64,000 nucleotides of DNA from Flavobacterium sp. CFS9 (GTDB taxonomy: Bacteria > Bacteroidota > Bacteroidia > Flavobacteriales > Flavobacteriaceae). The notes under the pieces were generated by a model, which was not told the origin of the DNA, searched no databases, and saw only the letters and a program-made list of their open reading frames with translations. Within the stretch, counting starts at the first letter, position 1; each line of letters begins with the position of its first letter. Where the stretch lies: positions 4,836,001-4,900,000 of the forward strand of contig NZ_AP031573.1 in NCBI RefSeq assembly GCF_041154745.1, given 5' to 3'. Positions 1 through 44,668 of this stretch are shown here, in pieces. Made by a program: the position numbers and the translations under genes.

Positions 1-3000
1 CTGACTAAACGATAAAGGAATACGAGCCGGACGTTCTTCTGCAACAATACCTGGTAATAAAACCACTTCAGACTGTGCCGCTATATGGGTTCCTAAGTCT
101 GAGATTGTGGCATGTTCAAATACTTCGCGGATGGATACTTCTATCATCAAAGCCTTACGGATCATCGAAACTAAACGTGTAGCCAGTAAACTGTGACCTC
201 CGAGTTCGAAAAAGTTATCATAAATCCCTATTTGTTCTACGCCTAACAGGTTTTGCCAGATTGCTGCTAATTGGATTTCTGTCTCATTACGCGGAGCGAC
301 AAATTCTTTACTGGATAAGCCTGAAAAATCAGGATTTGGTAATGACTTTTTATCCAGCTTTCCGCTACCGGATAATGGCATTGTATCTAATGCCACCCAC
401 AATTGAGGAACCATGTATTCCGGTAAGCTCAACTTTAATTGATTTTGTAGTCGCTCTTTGTCTAATGCTCCTTCTAAAACTACATAACCTACCAGACGTT
501 TGTTGCCTGCTGTATCTTCTTTGGCCAAAACACAACATTGGTTTACGCCCACTAAAGAAGACAAGGCGTTTTCGATCTCGCCTAATTCTATTCGATAGCC
601 GCGAATTTTAACCTGATCGTCTTTTCTGCCAATGCATTCTATGTTTCCATCCGGAAGCCAACGTGCTAAATCGCCTGTCTTATAAATTCGCTCTCCCTCT
701 TTGAATGGATTTGCTATAAATTTTTCCTTTGTTAATTCTTCCTTGTTCAAATATCCTCTGGCTACCTGAACTCCTCCTATACACAATTCGCCAATTACGC
801 CTATTGGTACTAATTGATTTTGATGATCTAAAACATATAAGCTGGTATTGGCTACCGGTTTTCCAATTAAAACCTGAGATAAAACATCTTTCAGAGGTAC
901 TTCCCATGAACTCACTTCAATTGCAGCTTCTGTAGGACCGTATAAGTTATCTAATCGAACATTCCTGAATTTTTCTTTAAATAAGAGTACCTGATCTACT
1001 TGTAAAGCCTCTCCACTACACAGAACCTGTTTTAACGATTTACAGTCTCCTAAGTTAATATCTTCTAAGAAAACTCTCAACATCGAAGGAACAAAATGAA
1101 TCGTTGTGATGTTTTCCTTTTCTATAATATGCTTTAAATATTCAACATCTTTGTGTCCTTCGGGTTTGGCAAAAACCAATCGTGCTCCACAGCTAATAGC
1201 CCATAAAAATTCCCATACCGACACATCAAAACTAAAAGAGGTTTTCTGTAGAATTGCATCATCACTCTTAAGCTGATAATGGGATTGTCCCCATAATAGA
1301 CGATTCACAATACCGCTATGTTGATTCATCACTCCCTTAGGTGTACCGGTACTTCCTGAGGTATATATCACATATGCTAAATTAGAGGCCGTCAATACAG
1401 TCCTAAGCTCTACTGTTGGATAACCTGAGATAAGTTCCCAATCTTTATCCAGACACAGAACGGATATATCCTCACCTCTGTTTATAACATTACAACTGGT
1501 TTGACTGCTTAAAACCAAATCAATACCAGCATCTTTAAGCATATAAGCGATACGATCTGTTGGATACTCCGGATCAATAGGAACATAAGCGCCTCCTGAT
1601 TTTAAGATCCCAAGAATACCAATTAGCATTTCTAAACTGCGCTCCAGACAGATCCCTACAAGAGTATCGGGTTTTACACCCTGCTCGCGTAAATAGTGTG
1701 CCAACTGATTGGAGCGCTCGTCTAATTCTTTGTAGGTTAGTTTTGCATCTTCATAAACAACTGCAATAGCCGTTGGTGTTTGCTTAACCTGCTCGGTAAA
1801 TAAATCAACTATTGTCTTATCTGATGGATAGGCAGCTTCAGTGTTATTGAAAACATTCAATAATTGATGCTCTTCTGCCTGGCTAAGCATGGACAGAGTA
1901 CTGATTGGTTGTTTGGTACTGCTTACAATACTTTGCAATAATTCCTGATAATGCAGCAGCATACTCTCGATTGTAGCCTTATCAAATAAAGCTGTGCAAT
2001 AATTTACCGCTAATGAAATACCATTGTTATTTTCTGATGCACTAAATGTCAAATCAAACTTAGAACTAACCGTATCAAACTCATATTCAGAAATAATAAT
2101 ATTATTTAATTTGTTCTCTTTTTGGACTTGATTATCTCCCTCATTTTGTAATACAAACATCACCTGAAACAGCGGACTCATGCTCCTATCACGGCTTGTA
2201 ACCACACGATCTACCACCTTCTCAAATGGGGTTAACTGATGGTCGTAACCTTCTAAAGTGGTTTGTTTTACTCTTGACAACACATCCTTAAAACTCGGAT
2301 CGCCGCTCAAATCACTGCGAAGCGCCAAGGTGTTGACAAAAAAGCCAATCATTCCTTCTAATTCCGCTTGGGTTCGATTTGCAATTGGTGTTCCAACACA
2401 AATATCTTCCTGACCGCTGTAACGCGACAACAAGATCTTAAAAGCGGATAATAAAAGCATAAACAAGGTTACTCCCTCCTCTTTACAGATAGCATTTAAT
2501 GAAGTTTTAAGCTTCTGGTCTAAAGCTAAAGAGACAGCTGCTCCCGCATTGCTCGGAACCGAAGGACGGGGATAATCTGTTGGTAAGGACAAAGTACTTA
2601 CGCCACTTAGTTTGGATTCCCAGTACGACAACTGATCCTCTAAAACTGCTCCTTCTAAATAGTTGCGCTGCCAAATCGCATAATCGGCATATTGTAAATG
2701 AAGTGTTGGTAGATTAGGTATGCTGTTGGATTGTAATGCACTATATAATTGTGTAAACTCATTCACCAAAATTCCCTCTGACCAGCCATCACTGGCAATA
2801 TGATGAAACACGCATACCAACACATATTTCTGATTCCCTAAAGTGTATAAACACGCTCGCAGTTTATAGTCTTTTGATAAATCAAAAGGTTTATGGGCAT
2901 AGTCGGCGATCTGATTTTTTAATACGAATTCATCCGATATGATCTCTGTATCCAGTGACCAGCCTTCTGCACTGATGATTTGCTGATAAGCGATACCTTC

Positions 3001-6000
3001 TTCTGATAAAAGCATGCTGCGTAAGATCTCATGACGCGAAACAATACCATGCAGGGTTTGTTCCAACAGCGACATCTCTAAAGCGCCTTCTAAACTCAAA
3101 ACTATCGGAATATGGTATTCAGTACTGCCCTGAAGCTGATCCAAAAACCATAGTCGTTCCTGACTAAACGATAAGGGAATACGCTCCGGACGCTCTCCCC
3201 CTGTAATAACCGGAAGTAAAATACCTTCTGACTGAGATGATAAATGAGTTTCTAAGTCTGAAATCGTGGTATAGGCAAAAACATCCGCAATTTCAATCTC
3301 TTTAGAGAGTTCTTTACGGATCATCGAAACTAAACGCGTAGCGAGCAAACTGTGACCTCCAAGTTCAAAGAAATCATCATGAATTCCTGCTCGTTCTACC
3401 CCTAACAGGTTTTGCCAGATCCCGGCTAGCTGTGTTTCTGTATCATTACGAGGAGCTACATATTCTTTACTCGATAGTCCTGAACCATCCGGATCTGGTA
3501 ATGCTTTTTTATCCAGTTTTCCGTTACCGGTTAATGGCATTGTATCTAATGCCACCCATAATTGAGGAATCATGTATTCAGGCAAACTTAATTTTAATTG
3601 GTTTTGTAATTGCTCTTTGTCTAATGCTCCTTCTAAAACTACATAACCTACCAGACGTTTGTTGCCTGCTGTATCTTCTTTAGCCAGAACACAACATTGA
3701 TTTACACCCGCTAAAGAAGACAAGGCGTTTTCAATCTCCCCTAATTCTATTCGATAACCGCGAATTTTAACCTGATCGTCTTTTCTGCCGATATATTCTA
3801 TGTTACCATCCGGAAGCCAGCGTGCTAAATCACCCGATCGGTATAATCTGGAAGTTTTATCCGCACTAAACGGATTCGCTATAAACTTCTCATTGGTTAA
3901 GTCTTCTCTATTTAAATAACCTCGTGCTACTCCTGCTCCCGAGATACACAATTCTCCTTCTACTCCTATGGGAACCAAATTTAAATGAGCATCCACTATG
4001 TAACATCCTAATGTTGGAATTGCAGTACCTATATTACTGATCAGACTCTGTGTATCTGTCTCTGTAATCTCTTTGTAAGTGACATGTACAGTTGTTTCTG
4101 TGATGCCATACATGTTGATTAGTTTACAATCTGCATAAGAACGCTTCCATCTTTCCAAATAAGTAGAATTCAGAGCCTCTCCTCCAAAAATTACATAACG
4201 CAGAGAATGTGATGAGCTTTTGGATAAAAATTCTTCCTGAAGTACGTAAAATGAACCTGGTGTCTGGTTTAAAACTGTTACACCTTCTTTTATTAATAAT
4301 TCCTTAAAAGAAACAGCATCTTTTGTTAGGGCCTTAGGAACAACCACTAAACGGCCTCCATGCAATAAGGCGCCATACATTTCCCATACTGAGAAATCAA
4401 AACAAAAGGAATGAAACAAAGTCCAGACATCACCGGACCCAAAATCATATAACGGGGATTCGTTTTTAAATAATCGAACTACATTTTTATGCGTTATCAA
4501 AACTCCCTTAGGTGTACCGGTGCTTCCTGAGGTATATATCACATATGCTAAATTAGAGGCCGTCAGCACAGTACTAAGCTCTACTGTTGGATAACCTGAG
4601 ATAAGATCCCAATCTTTATCCAGACACAGAACGGATATATCCTCACCTCTGTTTATAACATTACAACTGGTTTGACTGCTTAAAACCAAATCAATACCAG
4701 CATCTTTAAGCATATAAGCGATACGATCTGTTGGATACTCCGGATCAATAGGAACATAAGCGCCTCCTGATTTTAAGATTCCCAAAATACCAATTAGCAT
4801 TTCTAAACTGCGCTCCAGACAGATCCCTACAAGAGTATCGGGTTTTACACCCTGCTCGCGTAAATAGTGTGCCAACTGATTGGAGCGCTCGTCTAATTCT
4901 TTGTAGGTTAGTTTTTCATCTTCATAAACAACTGCAATAGCCGTTGGTGTTTGTTTAACCTGCTCGGTAAATAAATCAACAATTGTTTTATCTGATGGAT
5001 AGGCAGCTTCAGTGTTATTGAAAACATTCAATAATTGATGCTCTTCTGCCTGGCTAAGCATCGACAGAGTACTGATTGGTTGTTTGGTACTGCTTACAAT
5101 ACTTTGCAATAATTCCTGATAATGCAGCAGCATACTCTCGATTGTAGCCTTATCAAATAAAGCGGTGCAATAGTTTAAGACTAATGAAATACCATTGTTA
5201 TTTTCTGATGCACTAAATGTCAAATCAAACTTAGAACTAACCGTATCAAACTCATATCCGGAAATAATGATATCATTTAATTCGTTCTCTTTTGGGACTT
5301 GATTATCTCCTTCATTTTGTAATACAAACATCACCTGAAACAGCGGACTCATGCTCCTATCACGGCTTGTAACCACACGATCTACCACCTTCTCAAATGG
5401 GGTTAACTGATGGTCGTAACCTTCTAAAGTGGTTTGTTTTACTCTTGACAACACATCCTTAAAACTCGGATCGCCGCTCAAATCACTGCGAAGCGCCAAG
5501 GTGTTGACAAAAAAGCCAATCATTCCTTCTAATTCCGCTTGCGTTCGATTTGCAATTGGTGTTCCAACACAAATATCTTCCTGACCACTGTAACGCGACA
5601 ACAAGATCTTAAAAGCGGATAATAAAAGCATAAACAAGGTTACTCCCTCCTCTTTACAGATCGTGTTTAATGATGCGCTCAGCTTCTGATCTAAGACTAA
5701 AGAGACAGCTGCTCCCGCATTGCTCGGAACCGAAGGACGGGGATAATCTGTTGGTAAGGACAAAGTACTTACGCCACTTAGTTTGGATTCCCAGTACGAC
5801 AACTGATCCTCTAAAACTGCTCCTTCTAAATAGTTGCGCTGCCAAATCGCATAATCGGCATATTGTAAATGAAGTGTTGGTAGATTAGGTGTGCTGTTGG
5901 ATTGTAATGCACTATATAATTGTGTAAACTCATTCACCAAAATTCCCTCTGACCAGCCATCACTGGCAATATGATGAAACACGCATACCAACACATATTT

Positions 6001-9000
6001 CTGATTCCCTAAAGTGTATAAACACGCTCGCAGTTTATAGTCTTTTGATAAATCAAAAGATTGGTTGACATAGTCGGCGATCTGATTTTTTAATACGAAT
6101 TCATCCGATATGATCTCTGTATCCAGTGACCAGCCTTCTGCACTGATGATTTGCTGATAAGCGATACCTTCTTCTGATAAAAGCATGCTGCGTAAGATCT
6201 CATGACGCGAAACAATACCATGCAGGGTTTGTTCCAACAGCGACATCTCTAAAGCGCCTTCTAAACTCAGAACTATCGGAATGTGGTATTCAGTACTGCC
6301 CTGAAGCTGATCCAAAAACCATAGTCGTTCCTGACTAAACGATAAGGGAATACGCTCCGGACGCTCTCCCCCTGTAATAACCGGAAGTAAAACACCTTCT
6401 GACTGAGATGATAAATGAGTTCCTAATTCTGAGATTGTAGTATGTTCAAATACTTCACGGATAGAAACTTCTCTTTTTAAATCCTTACGAATCATCGAAA
6501 CTAAACGCGTAGCGAGTAAACTGTGACCTCCGAGTTCAAAGAAGTTGTCATAAATTCCTACTTGTTCTACCCCTAACAGGTTTTGCCAGATTTCAGCTAA
6601 TTGGGTCTCTGTTTCGTTGCGGGGCGCTACATATTCTTTACTCGATAGTTCTGAACCATCCGGGTCAGGCAATGCATTTTTATCTACCTTACCATTACTG
6701 GTAAAAGGTATTGCTTCGAGTTGAATAAATTGATTCGGAATCATAAACTTAGGAAGCACTTTGGACAATTGTGTTCTTAAATTCCCAGTATTTATTTCTT
6801 CTGTAAGTTCTAAAAAAGCGACTAAACGTTTATTTGAGTTTTGATCTGCTTTTACAAGTACTACTGCTTTTCTAACTTCCTCTAGTTTTAGTAGTGCATA
6901 TTCTATTTCGCCCAATTCTATACGATGACCACTAATTTTAACCTGATCATCTTTTCTTCCCATAAACTCTACTGTTCCATCAGGTAACCATCTTCCTATA
7001 TCTCCGGTTTTATATAACTTTTCGCCAGATTTAAAAGGATGTTCGATAAACTTCTCTATCGTTTGTAATGGTTTATTTAAATAACCTCGGGCAATACCAT
7101 CTCCGGATACACAAATTTCTCCTAACAAACCTATGGCAACCAAAGAGTCTGCTTCATCCAAAATATAAACCTCAGAATTGCCTACAGGCCCGCCAATAGG
7201 TATGATAGTATATTCTACATCGTTCGCAAATCGATAAATAGTTGAATCAATCGTATTCTCAGTTGGTCCATATGAATTGTACAGTGCTATTAAATATCTG
7301 CTGCCAAGTCTGCTGTTAAAAGTATTGACTACTTTGGTATTTATTTTATCACCGCCTGATACCACATGACGCAAACTTTGCAATTTCTTGAGATCAGTAT
7401 CCGATATGTAATCCAATATATTTTGTAACAATAAAGGCGGCATATTCACCTTTGTTATCTCATATTTTTGGATAGTGTCAATAATGTTCTGAAATAAATC
7501 ATCTTTGAAATTTACTGACGCCATAACACAGCAGCCTCCAATTGTAAAAGGCATCAGATACTCTTCAATAGCACCATCAAAGCTAAATGAACGATAAAAT
7601 AAAACCTTATCCTCAGCCGTCATGGCATAATATAGTTTATAAAACTGTAAGCGGGATGCCAGTGATCTATTACTAATTTCTACGCCTTTTGGCTGTCCGG
7701 TACTTCCGGATGTATAAATTATATAAGCCAAATTCTCCCCAGCTGAGATTCTGTGGATTGATTCCGTTGATTCACGAGCTATTACATCCCAGTCGCGGTC
7801 TAATAAAATAATATCTAAATTCGCTTTATCTGGAAATGCAACTAAGCTCTTACTATCACTAAGTAAAAATTTCACACCTGAATCCTCTAACATATAAGCT
7901 ATACGGTCTGCCGGGTACTCCGGATCGATTGGAACATAAGCACCTCCTGATTTCAATATCCCTAAAATACCAATAAGCATCTCGAAAGAACGATTAATAC
8001 AAATACCTATCAGATCTTCTTTTCCTACTCCTTTATTTATCAAAAACCTTGCGAACTGATTGGATTTCACATCCAAATCCTCATAAGTCAGTTCCTGATT
8101 ATTAAAAATAACCGCTGTCGCTTTTGGTCTTTCAGACACCTGTTCTGAAAACAAATCTACAATTGTCTTGTCCTTAGGATAATCAATAGAAGTAGCATTA
8201 AAAACATTCAGTAATTGATGTTCTTCTTCCTGAGGTAATATTGATAATTTACCTATTGGTTTATTGATATCTCTAATAATATTCTTCAATAACTCCTGGT
8301 AATGCAAAAGCATTCGATCGATCGTAATCTTGTCAAATAAAGCCGTACAGTAATTTACTGTTAGTAAAATACCATTGCTGTTTTCTGCTACACCAAGGGT
8401 TAAATCAAACTTGGAAGTTACCGTGTCAAACTCGTATTCCGAAATAATAATATCATGTAATCCCCTGTCTTTTTCTCCCTGACTATCAACTTCATTTTGC
8501 AATACAAACATAACCTGAAACAATGGACTCATGCTCATATCACGGCTTGTAACCACACGATCAACAACCTTCTCAAATGGAGTTAACTGATGATCATACC
8601 CCTCCAGAGTGGTCTGTTTTACTCTCGACAACAAATCCTTAAAACTCGGATCTCCGCTTAAATCACTGCGAAGTGCCAAAGTATTGACAAAAAAACCGAT
8701 CATTCCTTCTAAATCAGACTGGGTTCTATTGGCTATTGGTGTTCCTACGCAAATATCATCCTGTCCGCTGTAGCGCGATAACAAAATCTTAAAAGCTGAT
8801 AGCAATAACATAAACAGCGTTACACCTTCTTCTTGGCATATAGAACTTAGTGAAGTGCTTATTTTTTTATCCAATTCTAAGGAAATACTTCCTCCTGCAC
8901 TGCTCTGTACAGAAGGTCGTACATGATCCGTCGGTAAGGACAAAGTGCTTACATTGCTTAGTTTTGCTTCCCAGTACGATAACTGATTATCTAAAACCTC

Positions 9001-22646: not shown

Positions 22647-22653
22647 TATTAAA

Positions 22654-37600: not shown

Positions 37601-37788
37601 TGAGACGCAATACGTTTTGCATTATCATATAAATCCTGAAAAGTTCTGCGATCACTTTCTTCTTCCCCATTTTCTAAAAATCTATAAATAACCTTATTGG
37701 GAGCTTGATTAATATGATTAATTAAAACTTTAACTAAGGTTTCTTTCGAAGTTACTTCTTCTAGATTAGTCGATTTTATTAGTGGCAT
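22654..37788 (-). CDS. Nonribosomal peptide synthetase 1 with fatty acyl-AMP ligase loading module
   Basis: Initiating synthetase, 5044 aa. Residues ~10-590 are a fatty acyl-AMP ligase (YTSGSTGDPKG near 178, then LPIYHDMGLVG and GGPNFSYDLC). An ACP follows (LGVGSLNII, Ser near 644), then a low-complexity linker, which implies an acyl-capped peptide. The first C domain (HHIIADG near 960) is probably the starter C that acylates residue 1. Four modules follow. Codes read by eye: DVGEIGSIDK (Orn), DFWNIGMVHK (Thr), DAWTVAAICK (Phe-like) and DILQLGLIWK (Gly). The carrier after the Thr module differs from all others (LGGHSLLVVQLISRLQ, near 2887). The C domain after it is divergent: IYPLSPLQEGIYFHHL near 2970-2990 and HHLIMDH near 3113, features of dual E/C domains. 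The last carrier is near 4986. The protein ends NDYSINIEL, a possible docking tail. It starts 19 bases after the aminotransferase stop and is probably in one operon with it. Confidence 0.97.
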   Translation of the reverse strand: MPLIKSTNLEEVTSKETLVKVLINHINQAPNKVIYRFLENGEEESDRRTFQDLYDNAKRIASHILEYANPGDRVLLLYPSGLDFIDAFVGCLMAGVIAVPAFPPQGKRRVGRLENIAVDCKATLILTIESIYVKTISWFDNEIFADVKWLQTNLLTHSLDKEFPVVLPRDTAFLQYTSGSTGDPKGVMVTHSNIVHNNKLMENCFHQNFNSVGVSWLPIYHDMGLVGNILQALYVGFEMNIMPPTAFIQKPLRWLKIISDYKATFSGGPNFSYDLCVNQIKEEDLKGLDLSSWSVAYNGSEPIRPETINNFTTSFSLVGFSSTQLIPCYGMAETTLIVSCSNFNSVPKVLLLDKENFHLGKVKLLNKENKNSNTIEFIGNGPVLEELAIKIVNPDTKILCEENEIGEIWISGESVAKGYWQREELTKDFFQARIQNSDVNFSADETEYLRTGDMGFLMNEQLFITGRLKEMMIINGVNHFPQDIERVVQQSHIDLQDNAGAAFCIEANGKDQLVVVQEIKRTSMRGYDFDFIAKRIVDSVFEQHELAIYGIVLVEPGKVEKTSSGKIKRLATKKLYESATIDGVMDQWVRGQSINNEQLQENEIVKAPTLSNDVETFLREAVATELNVDILEINAHTSFSELGVGSLNIIRLIGIIHKEYGVEPPIRKMFEDLTNIDAIRKYITQEKGQTEAISDNLVEINEPFHTNISSGLPTSSNEKIHTGADSTTDSTDFITIRDLLVEQNRILEQQNQIILEFLKIFKTSENTNKQGTGVSVAEISETTNLFDSIKKKIITKEEISQTGSFDGKDFFLEKLPKKQEEQQESNISKVNLTLTQQKFNLLHQIDPERSLAYNQSFSLQMKGKIDASLLKIAVYNFVDTHNILRTRVSEDGVHLIFDSSITLPIEEIDFSKDGLDQQEKAYKALVDVNMHTAFSFTKGPLVRLQLVRFSSEETVLVVTMHHIIADGWSCALFIKGITNNYNSLFQGKKLDLLQSVGFNEYTKWLENKLSSDAWKVHEEYFINKFSKKSFNIILPFDNSVSQYGNAGKSVSLRIPAEDILRYKKWSSQQNLTLFMTFLSAFELLLCKITEKNELIIGIPTGGRTMPDIQEAIGDFSHFMPFLISHNSKDSLTEYVKDLKNRIYETYEHQEYPYASFMELLQKETDIKYDNWVNVVFNFNVSVSNIDMESVDLQVVHNKPVYSDFDLMFNAIEESGDLVLSLDYRESFLSSKLAKDILDCYQFILNQIIESNGGSIGNIQLLSEDEEEQQLKHFNNTEVLFPKDKTIVDLFEEQVLRMPESIAVVFGKKELTYKALDEKSNQIAHYLIGKGLSPEDLVGICVNRSFDMIIAVFGVLKAGGTYVPIDAEYPEERIHYIIEDSNTTFFITDHAHEFLAAENKKIQIITTDDNWNSIGKQPLSKVDTIINGDQSVYVIYTSGSTGRPKGVVINHTSLLNMALCWESSYHLDSDTCLLQMASFSFDVFSGDLCRSLLFGGRMVLCPSDARLDPARLYDLILEKGITILEGTPGLVIPLMDYIYEQSLDYAWMKLLILGSDVCNINDFKRVYSRFGHAMRIINSYGTTETTIDSSYFETDNVEILDGLVNVPVGKPLWNNSFYILNTSESLVPIGVIGELCIGGAGVARGYLNKEELTREKFVANPFKTGERMYKTGDLARWLPDGNLEFIGRKDDQVKIRGYRIELGEIENALSLLPEVTQCCVLAREDVNGAKRLIGYVVLEGALDKEQLQNQLKQSLPEYMIPMIWIALDAMPLTSNGKLDKKGLPDPDSSELSSKEYAEPTTDLELQLVNLWQELLGVERVGIHDDFFELGGHSLLATRLVSIIRKELTIEVSIREIFIHTTVSKLGTFVSAQSEGVILPTITVQDRPARIPLSFSQERLWFLDKLQSSTDYHIPVVLHLEGPLDISILEKTLQQIVYRHEVLRSVLLSEHGIGYQEIISAENWSLDREIVSDEVLLQSNIADYLKKPFDLSKDYMLRCCLYDCGNEKHVLASVFHHIASDGWSGGVLVNEFMKLYNILQLDRTASLPKLSLQYADYAIWQRKYVVDTALEEQLSYWEEKLQDVSTLALPMDYARPSVHSTIGASISSVLDKTLTASLDFLCRSEGVTLFMFLLSAFKVLLSRYSGQSDICVGTPIANRTQLELEDMIGFFVNTIALRSDLSGNPSFSNLLARVKQTTLEGYDHQLAPFEKVVDRVVTTRDMSMNPLFQVLFVLQNTPDASRELSLENIKISNYKFDNITSQFDLMLNVFEDNNGISLDMSYCTALFDKATIESMLLHYQELLQSIVSNIKQPISTLSMLSQAEEHQLLNVFNNTEAAYPSDKTIVDLFTEQVKQTPTAIAVVYEDAKLTYKELDERSNQLAHYLREQGVKPDTLVGICLERSLEMLIGILGILKSGGAYVPIDPEYPTDRIAYMLKDAGIDLVLSSQTSCNVINRGEDISVLCLDKDWDLISGYPTVELSTVLTASNLAYVIYTSGSTGTPKGVLITHKNVVRLFKNESPLYDFGSGDVWTLFHSFCFDFSVWEMYGALLHGGRLVVVPKALTKDAVSFKELLIKEGVTVLNQTPGSFYVLQEEFLSKSSSHSLRYVIFGGEALNSTYLERWKRSYADCKLINMYGITETTVHVTYKEITETDTQSLISNIGTAIPTLGCYIVDAHLNLVPIGVEGELCISGAGVARGYLNREDLTNEKFIANPFSADKTSRLYRSGDLARWLPDGNIEYIGRKDDQVKIRGYRIELGEIENALSSLAGVNQCCVLAKEDTAGNKRLVGYVVLEGALNKEQLQNQLKLSLPQYMVPQLWVALDTMPLTGNGKLDKKALPDPDGSGLSSKEYVAPRNETETQLAEIWQNLLGVERVGIHDNFFELGGHSLLVVQLISRLQTLDFNIAVKDIFAGPTIASIGDKLSSISFVYTVPANGILATSDCITPLMVPLLDFEQNDLDKIVAMVPGGFSNIEDIYPLSPLQEGIYFHHLMSNAVQGDPYILSGLLSFSDSKKRTDFIEALQFVVNRHDILRTCFLSADLPDVVQVVLREAVLSVELLESSNLDNSKAILPQLKVLATSGTHWMDTSKAPLLELKVTDDPENESYYLVVYYHHLIMDHVGLEKIMEEVMVHLSGEGENLSVPFLYRDFIGHTLHAQSVSDGESYFRSLLGAINEPTYPFNLSNALGDGTKIEEATVTLSKDLSTALRTTCVHLSISPAVLFHAAFGLVIARCSNKQYAVFGSLFSGRLQGSLGAADSLGLFINTLPVALELKGSVMEYLEEVKLRLGELLSYEQTPLPYIQDWSGISNQMALFSALLNYRHSSAVEEGNMKNLGITLIDDYERTNYPFNFIVDDFGIDFGLTALVDVNIGAGRILQFMEQSLIQLIDGLTFEKEVSINTLNILSNKEKHQLLDVFNDTDAVYPVDKTIIDLFVEQVKQTPNAIAILYKDVELTYKELDKHSNQLAHYLLSNNSIIADSLIGVVLERSEWLIISFLAILKTGAAYVPIDSNFPEERKEYIKKDSNCSIVIDDLVLETFKKNCSDYSGDLPEINISSDNLAYIIYTSGSTGKPKGVMIEHRNIVNTILSQISAFSITNKDSCLQFASISFDASIWEIGISLLSGSRLCIIKEEAKSDVTFFRNFIANNAITFATLPPAFLQLLAVDDIKSIKTLVTAGESIPLEVAKRFSEHYNYINAYGPTEASICSTTFQGGIKNRVSIGKPIDNTQVYVMNEEHNLLPVGVVGELCVGGAGVARGYLNLEQLTKEKFINNPFIEGERIYKTGDLARWLPDGNLEFIGRKDDQVKIRGYRIELGEIENVLSSLSGVAQCCVLAKEDPNNSKRLVGYVVPEGDFDKEIVQNQLKLSLPEYMVPQLWVTLEVMPLTTNGKLDKKALPDPENSELSTSKYIAPRNEIENQLVTIWQGLLGIENIGIHDNFFELGGHSLLATRLVSMIRKKLCIEVTIKEIFEHTTITELAAHVSVQSEGVLLPNIIVEDRPVRIPLSFSQERLWFLDQLQGSTEYHIPIVLRLEGVLEVSVLKQTLQEIVSRHEVLRSMLLSEEGIGYQEIISAKNWSLDQLEIKNRSMSESSLRDYLMRPFDLSKDYKLRACLYDLGDNQYVLAIVFHHIASDGWSGGILTNEFMELYNALQFGKTAALPELSLQYTDYAIWQRKYLEGIILENQLLYWEEKLKGVGTLSLPTDHIRPSVQSSVGASVSFVLDNELSASLESVCKEEGVTLFMLFLSIFKVLLFRYTGQEDVCVGTPIANRTQSELEGMIGFFVNTLALRSDLSGDPSFRELLTMVKQTTLEGYDHQLVPFEKVVDRVVTTRDMSMTPLFQVMFIVQNASVTNKKLDLEGVVVSDYEFDMVTTQFDLTLNVSEGEEGISLNINYSTALFEKTTIDRMLLHYQELLKSVVADTSKSLGNLSMLTKEEKHQLLDVFNKTDVAYPKDKTVIDLFTEQVKRTPAAIAVVYNGEELSYKELDQRSNQLGHYLQEKGVKRDALVGICLERSLEMFISILGILKSGGAYVPIDPDFPRDRINYMLTDAGIDLVLSSELSRTVIDKREGLSVLSLDSDWDLISNCSKSELSSLLSPSNLAYVIYTSGSTGVPKGVPVVHTSLVNFLLSMINGLRMSDLNSFLSVTTYTFDIFYLEFFTPLLLGAKVIMLDSISIKDADKLQSFIADYRPDFMQATPSTWQMLIDNNWDNKEGVTILTGGEAIKESLKDSLTTISNFVWNLYGPTEATIWVTAQRLNRFQKVNIGRAIDNVKIYIVDNYNKIVPLGVIGELCIGGVQVARGYLNREELTNEKFISNLYKEGERVYRTGDLARWLPDGNIELVGRKDDQVKIRGYRIELGEIENVLSSLPGVAQCCVLAREDSGGSKRLVGYVIPEGDFDKEVLQEQLKISLPEYMVPQLWVTLEAMPLTSNGKLDKKSLPNLDESELSSKEYVAPRNETEAQLAEIWQELLGIDKVGIHDNFFELGGHSLLATRLVSMIRRELLIEVSIRNIFRFNTVEELASYIIYKLVNSTDTKNDYSINIEL
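29160..30955. repeat. Thr adenylation-domain cassette shared by three NRPS modules
   Basis: The A domain of NRPS 1 module 2 is nearly identical at DNA level to 13139-14934 (NRPS 2 module 3, offset 16021) and, for its core, to about 3830-5180 (NRPS 3 module 2). Identity stops in the C-A linker at the high-coordinate end, near the CTALFDKATIES stretch. At the other end it stops where the unusual carrier of NRPS 1 begins. The specificity domain thus looks like a transplanted unit between unrelated flanks. Confidence 0.75.
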
Positions 37789-37807
37789 TATTATGTGGTT
37801 TTATTTT

Positions 37808-39202
37808 TTACAGAACTGATTCCAAGTATTTTTCCATTCTAACTTTGATGGCCTCTTTCATAATTTCAATTGCTTCATCAACAATTTTGGAAGTTGTGAT
37901 TAAAGGAGGGATCAATCTCATTACATTTTTATAATGACCACCTACTTCAAACAATAGCCCACGCTGAAAGCATTCCTCTCTAAGCTCTTTAAGATATTCC
38001 GGAAAAGGTTCCTTAGTAATCTTATCTTTTACAAACTCTACCCCCAACATCATTCCCTTTCCTCTTACATCTCCTATAAATGGATTTTCGGCTTCTAATT
38101 CCTTCAATTTTTCCATTAAATAGCATCCTATTGACTCTGTATACTTTTCAATCTCATATTCATCAATAAAATCAAAAGCTCCTCTTGCTGCCGCGATACT
38201 CACCTGATTAGATCTAAAGGTTCCTATATGATCCGCAGGCTTCCAGGCTTCTATACTTTTTCTATAGATTAATCCGGAAATAGGAAAACCTATTCCTCCA
38301 AAGCCTTTAGAAAATGTTACAATATCAGGTACCGCTTTTGTATTCATAAACTCTAAAAACTTTCCTGTTCTGAAAAAACCACTTTGAACTTCATCAAAAA
38401 TTACAATAACATCATGTTTATGAGCTATTTCGACTATACGTTCAAGGTACCCCTCTTTAGGTGCGATATTACCTCCTTCACCTTGCAGAGGTTCCAGTAT
38501 TATAGCAGCAGGTTTTACAATTCCTGAATGTGCCGTATTTAATATCCATTCGAAATGACTTACACATTCGAACTCACAACTATCACTATTTTTACTGAAA
38601 GGACAACGATAGCAATAACTATAGGGTGCAAAACTTACATTTGGAATTAGGGATGTCAATTTATTACGAAAAAATGTATCTGAAGTTACTGCCAAAGCCC
38701 CGGAACTCATTCCGTGATACCCTCCTGTGAAAGCTATAATTCCATCACGTCCTGTCTTAATTTTTGCCAGTTTTATTGCTGCTTCTATAGCATCTGATCC
38801 CGTAGGTCCTCCAAAACTCACCTTGTATTCCTCCTGAATCTCAGTTGGCAAGTTTTTTAATATTAGCTGAATTAAATCAAGCTTATTTTCAGTTGGAAAA
38901 TCTAATGCATGAATCAATTCTGTTTGTTGCTCTTTAACATAATCTAGCACATATTCGTTACCATGTCCCACATTCAGAACTCCGCATCCTCCAAAAAAGT
39001 CAATAAACTGATTCCCGTCCACGTCTTCAATAATACTTCCTTTCGCTCTTTTTATTGCAATTGGCATACTTTTAGGATATGAAACAACACTTCCTTCAAT
39101 TTCACTTTGCAGCTTCAACAATACTTTCGATTTTTCACCAGGTATTGAAGCTGAAACAATTTTTGCACATTCAGATAAATGATACTTTTTAAGTAACTCC
39201 AT
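37808..39202 (-). CDS. Class III PLP aminotransferase, diaminobutyrate aminotransferase-like
   Basis: 464-aa fold-type I aminotransferase. Visible family marks are GGPTGSDAIEAAIKLA (PLP phosphate region), FDEVQSGFFRTG (the Asp that contacts the PLP nitrogen, near residue 267) and TFSKGFGGIG with the Schiff-base Lys near 298. A four-Cys patch CYRCPFSKNSDSCEFEC is typical, as I recall, of diaminobutyrate-2-oxoglutarate transaminases. Such enzymes make L-2,4-diaminobutyrate from aspartate semialdehyde. It lies between the exporter and NRPS 1 on the same strand (76 and 19 bases), so it probably supplies a non-proteinogenic diamino acid to the peptide. Candidate users are module 1 (Orn-type code) or NRPS 3 module 1 (unassigned code). 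A 4-aminobutyrate or ornithine transaminase role cannot be excluded. Confidence 0.85.
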   Translation of the reverse strand: MELLKKYHLSECAKIVSASIPGEKSKVLLKLQSEIEGSVVSYPKSMPIAIKRAKGSIIEDVDGNQFIDFFGGCGVLNVGHGNEYVLDYVKEQQTELIHALDFPTENKLDLIQLILKNLPTEIQEEYKVSFGGPTGSDAIEAAIKLAKIKTGRDGIIAFTGGYHGMSSGALAVTSDTFFRNKLTSLIPNVSFAPYSYCYRCPFSKNSDSCEFECVSHFEWILNTAHSGIVKPAAIILEPLQGEGGNIAPKEGYLERIVEIAHKHDVIVIFDEVQSGFFRTGKFLEFMNTKAVPDIVTFSKGFGGIGFPISGLIYRKSIEAWKPADHIGTFRSNQVSIAAARGAFDFIDEYEIEKYTESIGCYLMEKLKELEAENPFIGDVRGKGMMLGVEFVKDKITKEPFPEYLKELREECFQRGLLFEVGGHYKNVMRLIPPLITTSKIVDEAIEIMKEAIKVRMEKYLESVL

Positions 39203-39278: not shown

Positions 39279-41054
39279 TCAGCTACCAACTTCTAAACCC
39301 ATTTGTTCTTGCACTAGCATTCCACCGTAATTGAATTTTATTAATCGATCACAGTATTGGTAATACGCGTCATCATGGGTAATTGCAATTACAGTTTTTC
39401 CTTTATTTTTTAAATCAGGAATTATATTTTCATAAAAATACTTTCGAAATTCCGGATCTTGCTCCGCAGCCCATTCATCAAAAATGAAAATATCTTTGTT
39501 TTCTAAAAGTGTATATATCAATGCGAGGCGCTTCTGCTGGCCACTGGACAAATTTTGAAATATTCTGTTATTTTCATCCTGTCTAATAACTTTATCCAGT
39601 TTCATTTTTTTCAAAAGCTCCGCTAAATGCTTGTTAGATGGAAGAAGATTGAAATTATCATAATTCTCCGTAAAGAGATAATTATTGGAAAAAATACATG
39701 ATATCATATCTCTATATTGCGCTCTGTTATCATCTGTAATTATTAAATCATTAAGGAAAATGTTTCCAGATTTCGGAATATATAATCCTGATAGTAAATT
39801 AATAAAAGTACTTTTTCCACTACCATTGCTTCCGGAGATAAAAATAATTTCCCCTTTCCCAAATTTCAGGTTGATTGGTTTAAGTTCAAACGTAACACTT
39901 CCTGTTTCATCAACATGCTGATAGGTTATCTCATTGATTGAAAGAGTTTCTAAAACTGGCCACTCTTCATTTGAAGCTGTTAACGGAAGGGCATCTGAAT
40001 GATTCAAATTATCTGTAAGAGTATCGTTAAACTCATTAATTCTGGCAAATGCAACATTATACCCTATGACACTCTTCATAAGGTTTATCAAAATACCAAT
40101 TGGTCCCATTAAGAATAAAAGAGTAATCATAAAACCAGAAATGACTGTTTTATCAATACTAAAAACAACAGGTAAGACAAAAAGTATTGCACCAATCAAA
40201 AAGTAAAAAAAATAACCTCCTAATAATTCATTGCCAAAAGACGATAATCCTGCCTTGGTACTCAGCTTTATTGCTTTATCACGGTTCTCTGTAATGTGGC
40301 CAATAAATATAGAATCACTTCTCTTAGTACTCATTTTAACTTTATTGAACCCATGTAAAAAGTCGTTATAAAATCTCATAAATACATCATCAAGATCTCT
40401 CTTGGCATCCATATCCTTTTCAATAATTCCATTTCGATATACATAGATAAAAACCAGTATAATAATAAGGGAAACTATCGTTAAGGCTCCTTTAGGATAA
40501 AGCCAAAACATGTATCCCATTCCGGCAATTATCATTACTAAAGAATTAAAAAAAGTGATAAAAACTCCGGGAAGTGATTCTAAAGTACGTACATCTTCCA
40601 TTATCGTTCTTACTCTTTCCTCACCAATCTGCAAATAAGATTCATAATTTGATAGTCGAAGTTTATCAATTATTTGCAGAGTCATTTCTTTACCAAAGAT
40701 TAGGCTCGCTTTTATCATGTAGCCATTAAAATAGTAGGTAAGCACAAAAGAGACTAAAACAAAAATTAAATAAATTAACCAATCAAACTCATTATAAAAG
40801 GGTAATGGAGTTCCAGATATTTTATGACTTACCAGCATTAACAAACTGCTACTCCATAAACCATTAATTACAGCCAAAAATCCAAGTAGTGGTAATGCTA
40901 CTTTTAGTTTTAATCTTAATAAATTAAGCAATGTTGCTTTTCCCAATTTTCTAGCTAATTTAGTTGTAATTGTAATTTTTATTTCCTGAAAAAAATCTGA
41001 AATACCTTGAAAAATCTCTCGACAATATCTGCTTGTCCATATCTTTTGACGCAT
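39279..41054 (-). CDS. Cyclic-peptide-type ABC exporter (fused membrane and ATPase domains)
   Basis: About 591 aa. The frame opens at a TTG (41060), but the ATG at 41054 is two codons later and preferred. An N-terminal membrane domain (about residues 45-345, several hydrophobic spans) is followed by an ABC ATPase: Walker A GSNGSGKST near 408, signature LSSGQQKRLAL near 508, and Walker B IFIFDEWAAEQDPEFR near 525, then ITHDD. The DEWAAEQDP form is characteristic of SyrD/PvdE-like exporters found with nonribosomal peptides. It sits in the presumed biosynthetic operon between the MBL protein and the aminotransferase, so export of the lipopeptide across the inner membrane is the likely job. About 45 residues precede the first membrane span, which is long for the family. 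Confidence 0.92.
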   Translation of the reverse strand: MRQKIWTSRYCREIFQGISDFFQEIKITITTKLARKLGKATLLNLLRLKLKVALPLLGFLAVINGLWSSSLLMLVSHKISGTPLPFYNEFDWLIYLIFVLVSFVLTYYFNGYMIKASLIFGKEMTLQIIDKLRLSNYESYLQIGEERVRTIMEDVRTLESLPGVFITFFNSLVMIIAGMGYMFWLYPKGALTIVSLIIILVFIYVYRNGIIEKDMDAKRDLDDVFMRFYNDFLHGFNKVKMSTKRSDSIFIGHITENRDKAIKLSTKAGLSSFGNELLGGYFFYFLIGAILFVLPVVFSIDKTVISGFMITLLFLMGPIGILINLMKSVIGYNVAFARINEFNDTLTDNLNHSDALPLTASNEEWPVLETLSINEITYQHVDETGSVTFELKPINLKFGKGEIIFISGSNGSGKSTFINLLSGLYIPKSGNIFLNDLIITDDNRAQYRDMISCIFSNNYLFTENYDNFNLLPSNKHLAELLKKMKLDKVIRQDENNRIFQNLSSGQQKRLALIYTLLENKDIFIFDEWAAEQDPEFRKYFYENIIPDLKNKGKTVIAITHDDAYYQYCDRLIKFNYGGMLVQEQMGLEVGS

Positions 41055-41085
41055 TTTCAATTATCAAAAGGAATAAAAATTCAAC

Positions 41086-42684
41086 CTACTTTGAGTACAT
41101 AATCTCTTTTTCTCCAAACAAACGTTCAGCAATTATATTGTTAGCCTGACAATCCTTTATCAATAGGTCAGACTGAACAATAGGATGAGATTCGGCTGTA
41201 TATTTTATACTACTGATAAATTCTAGCCAGGGCTCCTGCCCCATTGCATACACATAGACTTCTTTTGGATTAAATGCTTCTACTAAGCCCCTGCCTCTTT
41301 CAAAATTAGAGCCCGCCAATCTACGGGAAGAATCCTTATCTCTTGCCAATGGTTCTGTTAGCAATGGACCATAAAGCCATGAAAGTGGCGCTCCGTCACA
41401 TTCCATCCCTAAAAAGATAACATCAACATCTCCAAGTAAAGATTGCACTCTCTGGTAGATTTTTGATTCTACATTGCAGGAATCAGCAACGAAAAGCATT
41501 TTAAAATCTCCAACACGCACATGGTGACATATTTTAGCCTGAATATTTAAATCTGAATGCTCTCCTATAAATGGAATTCCTGTAATAGAACAATCGTTAA
41601 ATTTAATAGTATCCATTTCATCAATTTCTACTACATTATTAAATCCAATCGAATTAAACATCAACTTCAAACTAGGATCCTGCAAACTACCATTAGAAGA
41701 TCTTGGTACAACTATATTTTTTATTTTATGTCTTAAAGGAATAAGTGTTTCGAATAAAATATGATCTTGATGATTATGTGTAATTAAGACATAATCAATA
41801 GTATCAGGTAGATCCATATCTGAAAATCGCTCCACTTCCTGAGGATAACCATAATAACTAATAATAGGATCTATAAGAATACTAATATCCTTAGTTTCTA
41901 CTAATATACAGGCATGACCAAAATAACGCATTCTTACTTTGTCTCCCATATATTTTTCATAAGGCTTAGGAACTTCAATTGTAAAAAAAGATTCAAAAAC
42001 TGCCTCCATATCAGAAGGTATATCCAATTTCTTTTTAATTTCACTTAGTGATCCTGGAATTCTTCTCATTTTACTGAGCTCATCTAGCCCACTATGATTA
42101 AAAGGTATATTCAAATGTATTTTATCCTTATCTTCTAAACGTGGCGTACTGAGTACAAAGGGTCTTTCGTCATTATCAGTTAACCATAACAAAATACTCT
42201 GTGAAGTTTCTTTGTAAAATTCACTATTATATAATAATGTCTCAAAAAATCGAAATGAAGGCTGGTTGTTAAGATCATAAATCAATTCTACATAGCCCTT
42301 TAATATCTCAGGAACCTCTGCATATAGTGGTTCAAGAGAGTATCCTTTTGCTTTTGTTTTAAGCATTAAATCTAGCTCTTTAATCCCTTCACTAAAAGCA
42401 ATGAGATCTTTTTGACTTTTTAAAGTATTGTTGCGTAACTGCTCTATTTCGTCTACTCGTTTTCCTTCATAATCTATAAAAGGTCCACCTAACATTTTTG
42501 GGTTTTTCACAGCAGCGGCATGGGCAGTAGGAGCCTGAATATAGGATCCCATTATTTTCAAATGTCTACCCACAATATTCATTGCTGCTGTTGCCGGAGA
42601 TATTAAATGACTCCATGCATACCAGTTATCAAAAAGTGGTTCGATTACTAAATTCGGTTTTAAATAAACTAGATCTGTATTCAT
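41086..42684 (-). CDS. CmlA-like MBL-fold protein, candidate beta-hydroxylase of a carrier-bound amino acid
   Basis: 532 aa: an N-terminal domain of about 240 residues, then a metallo-beta-lactamase fold. Potential metal ligands are H303, H305, D307, H308 (HNHQDH), E375, H376 and D401 (FVADSC). The length and positions recall CmlA, the diiron enzyme that beta-hydroxylates a carrier-bound phenylalanine derivative in chloramphenicol synthesis. From memory its ligands include H305, E307, D309, H310, E377 and D403, each two higher than here. The difference is His305 where CmlA has Glu307, so the classic HxHxDH motif is kept. It could therefore be a true hydrolase or a variant oxygenase. It is the first gene of the presumed exporter-aminotransferase-NRPS operon. 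If an oxygenase, Phe3 or Asn6 would be natural targets; this is inference. Confidence 0.7.
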   Translation of the reverse strand: MNTDLVYLKPNLVIEPLFDNWYAWSHLISPATAAMNIVGRHLKIMGSYIQAPTAHAAAVKNPKMLGGPFIDYEGKRVDEIEQLRNNTLKSQKDLIAFSEGIKELDLMLKTKAKGYSLEPLYAEVPEILKGYVELIYDLNNQPSFRFFETLLYNSEFYKETSQSILLWLTDNDERPFVLSTPRLEDKDKIHLNIPFNHSGLDELSKMRRIPGSLSEIKKKLDIPSDMEAVFESFFTIEVPKPYEKYMGDKVRMRYFGHACILVETKDISILIDPIISYYGYPQEVERFSDMDLPDTIDYVLITHNHQDHILFETLIPLRHKIKNIVVPRSSNGSLQDPSLKLMFNSIGFNNVVEIDEMDTIKFNDCSITGIPFIGEHSDLNIQAKICHHVRVGDFKMLFVADSCNVESKIYQRVQSLLGDVDVIFLGMECDGAPLSWLYGPLLTEPLARDKDSSRRLAGSNFERGRGLVEAFNPKEVYVYAMGQEPWLEFISSIKYTAESHPIVQSDLLIKDCQANNIIAERLFGEKEIMYSK

Positions 42685-43245
42685 AAATATTGTTTTGTAC
42701 TTAATTTACCTTCAAAGGCATTATATATTTTTGAGCGATAATTTAGAGCTGTTTGTAACTAAAAATTAAATTCCTCTTTCATCTTATGGATTTAAGTTGA
42801 TTAACATACCTAAACTTCCAAATATTAGTGATAACTACATAACATTATTCATCCAATAAAATCAAGAGGCCACGAATTTATAGTATTCTTGATACTAAAC
42901 CTTACGGGAAACCGTAATTACAAAAGATTCTCAAAAAACTTTACGTTTTTTTTAAATTCTGTTAAACTACAACTTAATTTATGCTGCTATTTTAACTTTT
43001 ATATTACTGCATTACAAATGATAACAAAAAAACAAGCTTTAACAAATAGCAACTTACATATCGCACTAAAAATAATTTTAAACTTATTTTATTTCAAAAA
43101 GGCAAAACGTTGAGATAGAGAATTCCATCACAATGAAGTATCTAAGAATGTTTTACAGCTAATTTATTGCGCAATAATATATTTAGTAAGTGCAAATTAG
43201 AAAATAGCATTTCAGATTATCACGAACAAAACCTTAAAATAAAAT
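42685..43245. other. Intergenic gap between thioesterase and MBL-protein genes
   Basis: 561 bases, very AT-rich. Apart from the paired inverted repeats at 42881-42917 I see no gene, RNA or terminator. A 74-codon plus-strand frame at 42889-43113 has a composition I do not believe is coding. The gap probably carries the promoter of the long NRPS operon. Confidence 0.5.
42881..42917. promoter_or_regulatory. Two adjacent inverted repeats upstream of the exporter/NRPS operon
   Basis: Two perfect palindromes stand four bases apart, about 200 bases upstream of the MBL gene. TAGTAT-5-ATACTA lies at 42881-42897 and TTACGG-GAAA-CCGTAA at 42902-42917. They could be operators or a leader-RNA structure. 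I see no exact TANNTTTG box on the minus strand nearby. Confidence 0.35.
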
Positions 43246-43983
43246 CTAAAAAATAACAACAGAGTTAATAGCAATTTGAGATATCCTTTTTGCGATTGAT
43301 TCAGCGTGTTTAAAAATAAAAAAATGATCTCCTTCTAAAAGTTCAAATGTACAATTATTGCTAGTCTCATTTTGCCAGTCCTTCATACCGGTAAGAGGGG
43401 TTTTTTCATCACCAAAACCTATTTCATCCTTACCCATTAAAATATGAATAGGAAAAGTAAAAGGTATCTCCATCGGGAAATAGCTATAGTCCTCTATAGC
43501 TTTAAAATCCGATTTCATAATTGGATAGTAAAGATCCAAAAGTTCATTACATTCTAAAATTTCTTTTGGCAGTCCTCCAATTTTACCTACTTCTTCCCAA
43601 AAAAGAGAACTGGGTAATATAGATTTTTTGTTATTAAAGCGGCTAAATCCTGGCGCCCCGCGTCCTGTAAAAAAAAGAGCCATGGGTTTATGCATTCTTT
43701 TTTCAGTAATTTTCTTTGCCAATTCATATCCTAATAATGTCCCCATACTATGACCATATATGATATAATTTCCTTCTTGTATATGTGGCATTATTTGATT
43801 AAATAGATCATTTACCATCTGGTCAACGTTGTCAAACAATTTCTCTTTAAAACGACTACCTCTTCCTGGAAGCTCCAAGGTAATCCAATCTATCTTTTTT
43901 GGTATATACTTTTCAATATTATTAAAGCTATATTTATTACCTCCTGCAAATGGAAGAGCTATTATTTTATTATTCGTTGTCAT
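43246..43983 (-). CDS. Type II thioesterase of nonribosomal peptide synthesis
   Basis: 245-aa alpha/beta hydrolase. It shows the external thioesterase pattern: N-terminal LPFAGGNKYSF, PGRGSR, nucleophile motif GHSMG (Ser near 79), and a late GDHFF with the catalytic His near 219. Stand-alone enzymes of this type remove wrong acyl groups from carrier domains of NRPS lines. The gene starts 7 bases after the phosphopantetheinyl transferase stop, so the two housekeeping functions of the assembly line are co-transcribed. No release thioesterase is visible in the window, so this protein should not be taken as the cyclising enzyme. Confidence 0.92.
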   Translation of the reverse strand: MTTNNKIIALPFAGGNKYSFNNIEKYIPKKIDWITLELPGRGSRFKEKLFDNVDQMVNDLFNQIMPHIQEGNYIIYGHSMGTLLGYELAKKITEKRMHKPMALFFTGRGAPGFSRFNNKKSILPSSLFWEEVGKIGGLPKEILECNELLDLYYPIMKSDFKAIEDYSYFPMEIPFTFPIHILMGKDEIGFGDEKTPLTGMKDWQNETSNNCTFELLEGDHFFIFKHAESIAKRISQIAINSVVIF

Positions 43984-43990
43984 TAATTTT

Positions 43991-44668
43991 TTAAATCTGA
44001 ATTAATTTGTGGGATAATTTTGAAGAATCAAATTCTGAAATCTTTATACTTGATTCATTAACTAATTTATTAGTTGCTATATGGCATTTGTATTGATCGT
44101 CTAACCAAATTTGTTTTAGAAAAAAATTTTCATTATCAACAATTGCTGTATTTTTCAATACTTCAAAAGATCTTAGTGGTACGGTTAAACCTTTTCCACA
44201 ACCTTTGATTACAGCTTCTTTTTGTGTCCAATAATTATAAAATGAATCCATCTTATTAAAAGATCCGGTAATTTTCATCCATTCCCCATCTGTCATCTGA
44301 GGTTGAAAATCTTCCAACTGAATATCGCGTTTTAACTCAATATCTATTCCAATTTCACACAGATTAGTCACAGCACAAACAACAATTTTTCCAGAATGAG
44401 AAATATTAAAAAAAACTTCTCCTCTTTCTTCCCCAAAATAAGGTTTATTATATTCGGTATATTTTATATTGATTTCTCTATATTTTTTATCAAAATTATC
44501 AGTCCCTTTATAAAGTAATATCCTTCCTAATAATGACAATTGAGCATCCTGCCATCTGCGATAGCTCTTTACTTTTTTTTGAAAATCAATTGGTAATTTT
44601 AGCAAAGACTCTTGCATTAATTTTTTATGATTATTCTCAGAAATATAGGAATAATATATGTAAATCAT
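43991..44668 (-). CDS. 4'-phosphopantetheinyl transferase, Sfp type
   Basis: 225 aa, the usual length for the Sfp/HetI branch. The magnesium-binding motif is seen as IGIDIELKRD near residues 111-120, followed by WTQKEAVIKGCGKGL near 150-165. It transfers phosphopantetheine from CoA to the conserved Ser of each carrier domain and so activates the ACP and all T domains of the three NRPS proteins. It is the first gene of a two-gene unit with the thioesterase. The ATG at 44668 gives MIYIYYSY, an ordinary start for this family. Confidence 0.92.
   Translation of the reverse strand: MIYIYYSYISENNHKKLMQESLLKLPIDFQKKVKSYRRWQDAQLSLLGRILLYKGTDNFDKKYREINIKYTEYNKPYFGEERGEVFFNISHSGKIVVCAVTNLCEIGIDIELKRDIQLEDFQPQMTDGEWMKITGSFNKMDSFYNYWTQKEAVIKGCGKGLTVPLRSFEVLKNTAIVDNENFFLKQIWLDDQYKCHIATNKLVNESSIKISEFDSSKLSHKLIQI

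Follow-up and report, generated by a model that had tools for sequence, protein, structure and literature searches.

The systems closest to the locus considered here, a nonribosomal peptide synthetase (NRPS) line of Flavobacterium sp. CFS9 that begins with a fatty acyl-AMP ligase (FAAL), have been described from several groups of bacteria. Iturin-type loading is exemplified by MycA of the mycosubtilin line, in which an acyl ligase, an acyl carrier protein (ACP), a ketosynthase (KS) and an aminotransferase precede the NRPS part (PMC3039948). Chitinopeptins are Chitinophaga cyclic lipodepsipeptides of 14-15 residues; a 16-module relative is predicted, and in one relative a polyketide synthase module takes the place of the starter condensation (C) domain (PMC9248904). 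Within Flavobacterium, 29 NRPS and 41 hybrid gene cluster families have been counted as specific to the genus, and clusters resembling the rhizomide and xenematide ones occur in the family (PMC10734526); one FAAL product, corramycin, is listed under Bacteroidetes in PMC11837247.

The stretch analysed, hereafter the window, comprises 64,000 nucleotides (G000:C1:4836001-4900000 of the 5,370,016-base, single-contig host genome), and a further 40 kb to its left was analysed with it. Quite probably, the locus represents the front part of an NRPS line of four proteins and 19 modules that starts with a FAAL and whose predicted product is an acylated peptide of 19 residues; this peptide would likely be released by a thioesterase (TE) and probably exported. 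The logic of iturin loading is shared by four of the five close relatives of this locus, although these carry an acyltransferase (AT) in line whereas iturin clusters encode a separate malonyl transacylase (PMC3039948); the window and its fifth relative, Myroides guanonis, differ from iturin in being without the KS-AT-ACP2-aminotransferase stretch, and peptide length and predicted sequence also differ. The likeness to chitinopeptins extends to a lipopeptide line in the Bacteroidota, a CmlA-like beta-hydroxylation and an ABC transporter, but as described in PMC9248904 those lines have ordinary epimerization (E) domains, no epimerizing C domains, 2,3-diaminopropionate (Dap) supplied through sbnA/B and 14-16 modules, against 19 here. 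That description sets them apart from the present locus, in which neither E domains for D-residues nor sbnA/B Dap genes were found (no sbnA/B-type Pfam match among the 20 proteins scanned). Arthrofactin and its Pseudomonas kin obtain D-residues, as is predicted for the present line, from dual condensation/epimerization (C/E)-like domains without E domains; arthrofactin ends in tandem TEs (PMC3039948), in contrast to the FAAL start and single terminal TE found here, and only 2 of the 19 C domains here are C/E-like.

Systems of this class have been described before; the predicted product, and the family to which it belongs, are likely new. Searches of an open-licence library (subscription journals and MIBiG lie outside it) listed no flavobacterial lipopeptide with the predicted order, and do not contradict the suggestion of an earlier, sequence-only reading of the window that the product may be new. 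The cluster may already figure, unnamed, in the Flavobacterium survey, since PMC10734526 counts NRPS and hybrid families specific to the genus.

Organization of the assembly line

All four NRPS genes lie on the minus strand, and their frames run uninterrupted for 63.9 kb. The left edge of the window falls within the cluster, which continues 26 kb leftwards in the host genome (negative positions, below, lie left of the window). nrpsA (22654..37788; 5044 amino acids) is read as FAAL-ACP-starter C-A1-T, C-A2-T, odd C-A3-T and C-A4-T, where A and T denote adenylation and thiolation (carrier) domains, with a predicted Orn/Dab-Thr-Phe-Gly, the first residue being ornithine (Orn) or 2,4-diaminobutyrate (Dab). 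Four C-A-T modules (Ser-Asn-Thr-Ser) make up nrpsB (9774..22664; 4296 amino acids). In nrpsC (-6275..9774; 5349 amino acids) modules 9-11 (X-Thr-Ser) lie inside the window at 1..9774 and modules 12-13 (Tyr-Ser) outside it, as does the whole of nrpsD (-26087..-6285; 6600 amino acids; Phe-X-Asn-X-Leu-Val-TE). The part to the left of the window, that is, the rest of nrpsC and nrpsD, contributes eight modules and the terminal TE, which is found at the C-terminus of nrpsD (PF00975). Leaving the FAAL and its ACP aside, motif scans count 19 A domains and 19 carrier domains, and every module has a single C domain, 19 in all. The line is colinear throughout: FAAL-ACP is followed by a starter C domain, then by the C-A-T order in all 19 modules and by the TE.

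The start of nrpsA consists, in Pfam, of AMP-binding, DIP2-like AMP, PP-binding and Condensation domains. Against the PDB its top two matches are named 'Polyketide synthase' and 'Saframycin Mx1 synthetase B', and CoA ligases score far lower than the FAALs (FadD23, FadD32 and a 'Fatty Acyl-Adenylate Ligase'). PP-binding stands alone between the FAAL and the starter C domain; the KS and aminotransferase of iturin-type loading are not found there. The sequence-only reading had taken the window for a lipopeptide assembly line with a FAAL-ACP start, eleven complete modules and one more C domain. The line itself, its start (on the Pfam domains and the PDB ranking) and the eleven C-A-T modules are borne out; the additional C domain lies almost wholly outside the window, its Pfam match spanning window 21 to -1292 with only the first few residues inside.

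Predicted peptide

The 19 A domains were aligned with module 1 as an anchor placed by eye, and their ten-residue specificity codes were read off the alignment; the residue names attached to them, for all but Orn, follow general code tables. Thr is predicted from codes 2, 7 and 10 (DFWNIGMVHK), Phe from 3 and 14 (DAWTVAAICK), Gly from 4 (DILQLGLIWK), Ser from 5, 8 and 13 (DVWHLSLIDK) and from 11 (DVWHLSLIEK), Asn from 6 and 16 (DLTKIGEIGK), Tyr from 12 (DASTIAAICK), Leu from 18 (DAWYVGNVVK) and Val from 19 (DALWLGGTFK), while codes 9 (DGENVGSIDK), 15 (DASTHGGVCK) and 17 (DIWQLTADDK) are left as X. Polymyxin-type Dab codes lie one or two residues away from code 1, DVGEIGSIDK. The latter is given as an Orn code in PMC3992020. 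The Orn assigned to residue 1 by the sequence-only reading is thereby confirmed as a code, yet residue 1 may equally be Dab because a diaminobutyrate-transaminase-like gene lies in the cluster.

The full predicted order is acyl-Orn/Dab-Thr-Phe-Gly-Ser-Asn-Thr-Ser-X-Thr-Ser-Tyr-Ser-Phe-X-Asn-X-Leu-Val. All eleven codes read by eye in the earlier work are recovered by the alignment in the same sequence, and the order of eleven residues given there is correct as far as it goes, but it covers only 11/19 of the line, the rest being Tyr-Ser-Phe-X-Asn-X-Leu-Val. The odd C domains, the hydroxylase, the starter difference and the near-identical copies described below do not figure in that reading. With 7 of 19 codes specifying Ser or Thr, the peptide would indeed be Ser/Thr-rich, as had been proposed; its cationic character is plausible, and rests on residue 1 and perhaps residue 9.

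Condensation domains and predicted D-residues

Fifteen of the 19 C domains carry HHxxxDG, two (C6, C16) HHxxxDA and two (C3, C15) HHxxxDH. The latter pair is odd: C3 (27580..29040, minus strand) and C15 match the Condensation family weakly (C3 alone at 4.9e-43) and read HHLIMDH at the site of HHxxxDG. At their N-termini C3 has HHLMSNAVQGD and C15 HNLMSDPNQGD, with six residues before GD. In the PDB, a microcystin synthetase and PvdL are the first matches for C3; to our knowledge none of the first matches is a dual C/E domain. C3 and C15 are not E domains, since each occupies the C place of its module, and the count of 19 Condensation-family matches, one per module, shows no extra E domain. D-residues are predicted at positions 2 and 14, ahead of these two dual C/E-like domains.

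The odd C domains might instead dehydrate the preceding beta-hydroxy residue, turning Thr2 into dehydrobutyrine. Dehydrating C domains exist, and PMC10880069 assigns to the C/E clade some that may form dehydro-residues; moreover, residue 2 of the window line is Thr, and a hydroxylase is encoded. However, in the relative Flavobacterium sp. ov086 the code ahead of this odd C domain is of the Ile type (DGYFLGVVYK), a residue that offers no hydroxyl unless the hydroxylase adds one, and the N-terminal HH-L-x6-GD resembles the HH[I/L]x4GD that marks dual C/E domains (PMC3039948). Dehydration is rejected as a conserved role of the odd C domain on the strength of that upstream Ile code, and for the window line we regard it as improbable beside epimerization.

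Accessory genes and proposed biosynthesis

Five accessory genes, also on the minus strand, lie upstream of nrpsA, to its right. A CmlA-type diiron beta-hydroxylase (41086..42684; PF18456, 3.9e-98), whose predicted substrate is an amino acid bound to a carrier, combines the CmlA N-terminal domain with a metallo-beta-lactamase fold bearing HxHxDH (HNHQDH, at residue 303); its best PDB matches are a non-heme diiron monooxygenase (residues 3-526) and CmlA (8-523 of 532; 1.8e-123). Its target could be guessed to be Phe, Tyr or Asn. An ABC exporter of the cyclic-peptide type (39279..41060) scores 298.9 bits against TIGR01194, for which the cut-off is 286.2. A stand-alone type II TE (43246..43983; PF00975, 1.5e-33) and a 4'-phosphopantetheinyl transferase (PPTase), which activates carrier domains (43991..44668; PF01648, 3e-11; PF22624, 8e-11), complete the right side of the cluster, whose edge at 44668 agrees with the content conserved in relatives.

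The fifth gene, next to nrpsA, encodes a class III aminotransferase (37808..39202) that is nearest, in NCBIfam, to Dab-2-oxoglutarate transaminase and is predicted to supply Dab. The enzyme might instead racemize amino acids or act on the fatty acid; its best PDB match is an alanine/serine racemase at 4.9e-69, ahead of a Dab transaminase at 5.6e-65. The NCBIfam ranking runs the other way, with Dab transaminases first at 422.5 bits and the leucine/methionine racemase and alanine/serine racemase family at 270.2 and 240, and the separate aminotransferase gene is retained even in those four relatives whose line contains an aminotransferase domain of its own; the racemase or fatty-acid assignment is unlikely, if by no means negligible, next to Dab supply.

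In the proposed pathway the FAAL would activate a fatty acid and load it on the ACP, and the starter C domain would join the fatty acyl group to Orn or Dab. Eighteen further modules would add Thr-Phe-Gly-Ser-Asn-Thr-Ser-X-Thr-Ser-Tyr-Ser-Phe-X-Asn-X-Leu-Val, with epimerization of residues 2 and 14 falling to the two dual C/E-like domains and beta-hydroxylation of one carrier-bound residue to the CmlA-type enzyme. Release by the terminal TE would give a linear product or, more likely, a cyclic one, and the neighbouring ABC transporter would probably export it.

Several observations weigh against this proposal. The predicted line is read from sequence, and the searches of the open-licence library gave no matching product; most residue names rest on the general code tables mentioned above, and 3 of the 19 codes (9, 15 and 17) fit no placeable code, paper searches for codes or parts of them having given nothing relevant to these three. 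The odd C domains do not match the textbook dual C/E motif exactly (six residues rather than four before GD, and HN in place of HH in C15), C6 and C16 have HHxxxDA instead of HHxxxDG, and the aminotransferase falls below the NCBIfam cut-offs (NF005393, 422.5 bits; TIGR00709, 390.2 against 401.6). All five relative loci are cut by contig ends or by the flank fetched, so that no relative's line can be read whole. The lack of a reported product would also suit a line that is a relic or silent and makes no peptide. Against that stand the uninterrupted frames of the four NRPS and five accessory genes, the A3, A8 and carrier motifs present in 19/19 modules along with the His motifs tallied above for every C domain, and a gene order kept in five relatives; a relic or silent line is given little credence, slightly less than dehydration.

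Relatives

The FAAL-ACP is found at 78-81% identity in 3 of 298 other genomes of the genus that were sampled, the next best match being at 45%. A scan of named genomes gave six loci, of which five are close: Myroides guanonis DSM 26542, Flavobacterium sp. ov086, F. tructae CCUG 60100, F. aquicola DSM 100880 and the metagenome-assembled genome (MAG) nzgw149. The sixth, in a Pseudomonas MAG, was set aside at 23% identity. The order PPTase-TE-hydroxylase-exporter-aminotransferase-nrpsA is the same in the gene listings of M. guanonis, ov086 and F. tructae, and tblastn recovers the same series in F. aquicola and MAG nzgw149.

Where they can be read, the ends of the predicted peptide are conserved, and its middle is not. 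Code 1 is Orn-type in 5/5 relatives. One contig of ov086 carries Phe, the odd C domain, code 15 and then the first part of an Asn-type code, and one of M. guanonis carries Phe, the odd C domain and code 15; on split contigs of both, code 17 is followed by a Leu-type code, DAWYLGNVVK, one residue off window code 18, and in M. guanonis a Val code and, by sequence, a TE-like end come next. The C-terminal codes are thus kept in the two genomes in which they can be read, the other three relatives being cut earlier. Position 2 and the middle codes differ between window and relatives: code 2 is the Ile-type code already given in ov086 and, by eye, Val/Ile-like in F. tructae (starting D-A-I, with W fourth), and split ov086 contigs show Gly, Cys, Pro-like, Thr, code 9, Tyr and Ser codes.

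The starter block

Before the Orn-type module the four cassette carriers (ov086, F. tructae, F. aquicola and the MAG) have FAAL-ACP1-KS-AT-ACP2-aminotransferase-C; in 4/4 the order returned by Pfam is KS, AT, carrier and class III aminotransferase. The M. guanonis stretch that matches this cassette holds a C domain and, by Pfam, no KS or aminotransferase. The single ACP of the window, which follows the FAAL at 35740..37788 (minus strand), is like ACP1 of the carriers in its N-terminal half and like ACP2 in its C-terminal half: before the break it has 19 ACP1-only and 6 ACP2-only matches, after it 4 and 30, and the corresponding numbers for M. guanonis are 24 and 6, then 4 and 33. On this comparison of sequences the single ACP of both is a chimera. 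Among the four carriers the starter C domains are 96-99% identical; to that of the window or of M. guanonis they are 82-84% identical, and the latter two share 86.6% with each other, whereas the M. guanonis FAAL is 89-92% identical to the four carriers and 83% to the window. Because the ACP is chimeric and starter C identity, unlike that of the FAAL, follows the cassette, the block from mid-ACP to starter C appears to have been exchanged as a unit.

As to the direction of exchange, the chimeric ACP would suit deletion of the cassette, but insertion through two ACP crossovers would leave the same pattern, and the FAAL identities fit gain of the cassette at least as well as its loss. The FAAL tree, whose outgroup leaves out two of five rows (L014 and L016, in which the frame used gave stops), has long outgroup branches and no starred fork, and has no bearing on gain versus loss.

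A second discontinuity is seen with F. tructae. In 250-base steps the PPTase, TE and hydroxylase genes are 96-99% identical to that genome, and at the hydroxylase/exporter border (window 40838-41088) identity breaks sharply, running at 67-89% leftwards from 41088; three flanking stretches elsewhere, a small background sample, are 91-95% identical. The F. tructae cluster lies at another genome place, its flank mapping to G000 4.956-4.964 Mb, and the right flank of the window maps to another F. tructae contig. Given the identity break and the different location of the cluster, either the upstream block or the NRPS block has probably been exchanged between lineages.

Probable recent copying within the line

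Median A-core DNA identity within the line is 47.7% over 171 pairs. Against this baseline A6/A16 and A8/A13 are 100% identical, A2/A7/A10 99.7-99.9%, other Ser pairs 98.4-99.4% and A3/A14 93.5%. Module 6 (Asn; 16113..19358, minus strand) is a near-exact duplicate of module 16 in nrpsD, with 1 mismatch in 3246 bp, and a whole-genome search finds it at 100% over its full length in two places only, itself included (40 of 90 first-look candidates scored). The block that contains A2 (29189..30951, minus strand), a predicted paste, is near-identical to its A7 and A10 counterparts, with 9 mismatches to module 7 in 1763 bp. It runs from the end of the C domain (30951) to the A-T linker (29189), while the C domain of module 2, which precedes it, is 63-83% identical in sliding windows; three genome places, itself included, match it at 99% or above over the full length (40 of 111 candidates scored). 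A comparable event is known from the wollamide/desotamide lines, in which intragenomic A-domain replacement changes one residue (PMC9205934); here, by contrast, donor and recipient are in the same cluster and nearly identical, and the block comprises the end of C, the whole of A and the A-T linker, not the A core alone.

The window Thr and Ser A domains are 84-86% identical to their ov086 counterparts, and the Asn A domain is 83% identical to a partial one in ov086. Since the internal copies are 98.4-100% identical, copying looks younger than the split from ov086. ov086 is matched by C2 (88%) and C3 (82%) but not by A2, so that position 2 was probably Ile/Val-like before the putative A2 paste. 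The cluster has probably been re-edited by copy-and-paste very recently; recent copying and starter exchange, we infer, are the causes of the near-identical modules and of the differing starter block.

Near-identity of modules could also arise in assembly, the true line having fewer or different modules, and draft contigs of three relatives (F. tructae, ov086, M. guanonis) do end inside NRPS genes, suggesting repeats that are hard to assemble. The host genome is nevertheless one contig of 5.37 Mb, all four frames are open throughout, the copies have different edges and some private mismatches, and each module has one C, one A and one T domain. An artefact is very improbable, the least probable of the alternatives considered here.

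Put together, these observations give about an even chance that the locus belongs to a new flavobacterial lipopeptide family with a shared head (Orn/Dab) and tail (D-Phe-X-Asn-X-Leu-Val), whose middle and lipid start are swapped, whose starter block is mobile as a unit and would switch the product from an iturin-like beta-amino-acyl head to a plain acyl one or back, and whose A domains have been pasted so recently that donor and recipient are almost identical. If this is true, the product would be longer than the chitinopeptins, the longest Bacteroidota lipopeptides in the literature considered. The locus would then hold natural experiments in assembly-line editing: a module duplication with a single mismatch, an A domain that appears to have been pasted into a foreign module and whose two edges can both be seen, and the exchange of a starter block along with its starter C domain. 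The edges of such copied and exchanged blocks would be natural fusion points for engineered NRPSs, and this record of recent editing inside one cluster is the freshest aspect of the locus.

Surroundings of the cluster

The host genome has 63 Condensation matches, of which 19 fall in this cluster; three other NRPS regions (G000:C1:14014-79296, 3145945-3200217 and 5236951-5266996) hold 42 of the remaining 44. CmlA-type hydroxylase genes number four in the genome, the three further full-length ones lying in or beside the first two of those regions (14014-79296 and 3145945-3200217). Directly downstream of nrpsD is a gene resembling aminoglycoside phosphotransferase (APH) and homoserine kinase (L005:12135-13121; window -27865 to -26879), which may encode a kinase for self-protection or have no connection with the cluster; it has no tblastn match in the six relative loci, and its region has no gene-length DNA match in F. 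tructae (G159) or ov086 (G235). Also to the left of the cluster lies a hybrid two-component regulator (7TMR-DISM sensor, histidine kinase, receiver and AraC-type HTH; L005:6766-9594). Rfam and tRNA scans of the window gave no matches. Its G+C fraction is 0.34-0.40 over 1-36000, the NRPS genes, and 0.29-0.34 over 36001-64000. At window 47729-51578 a HisC-like aminotransferase, an FAD-binding, cytokinin-dehydrogenase-like oxidase and a glyoxalase-fold protein stand in a row, in what looks like a small separate biosynthetic operon.

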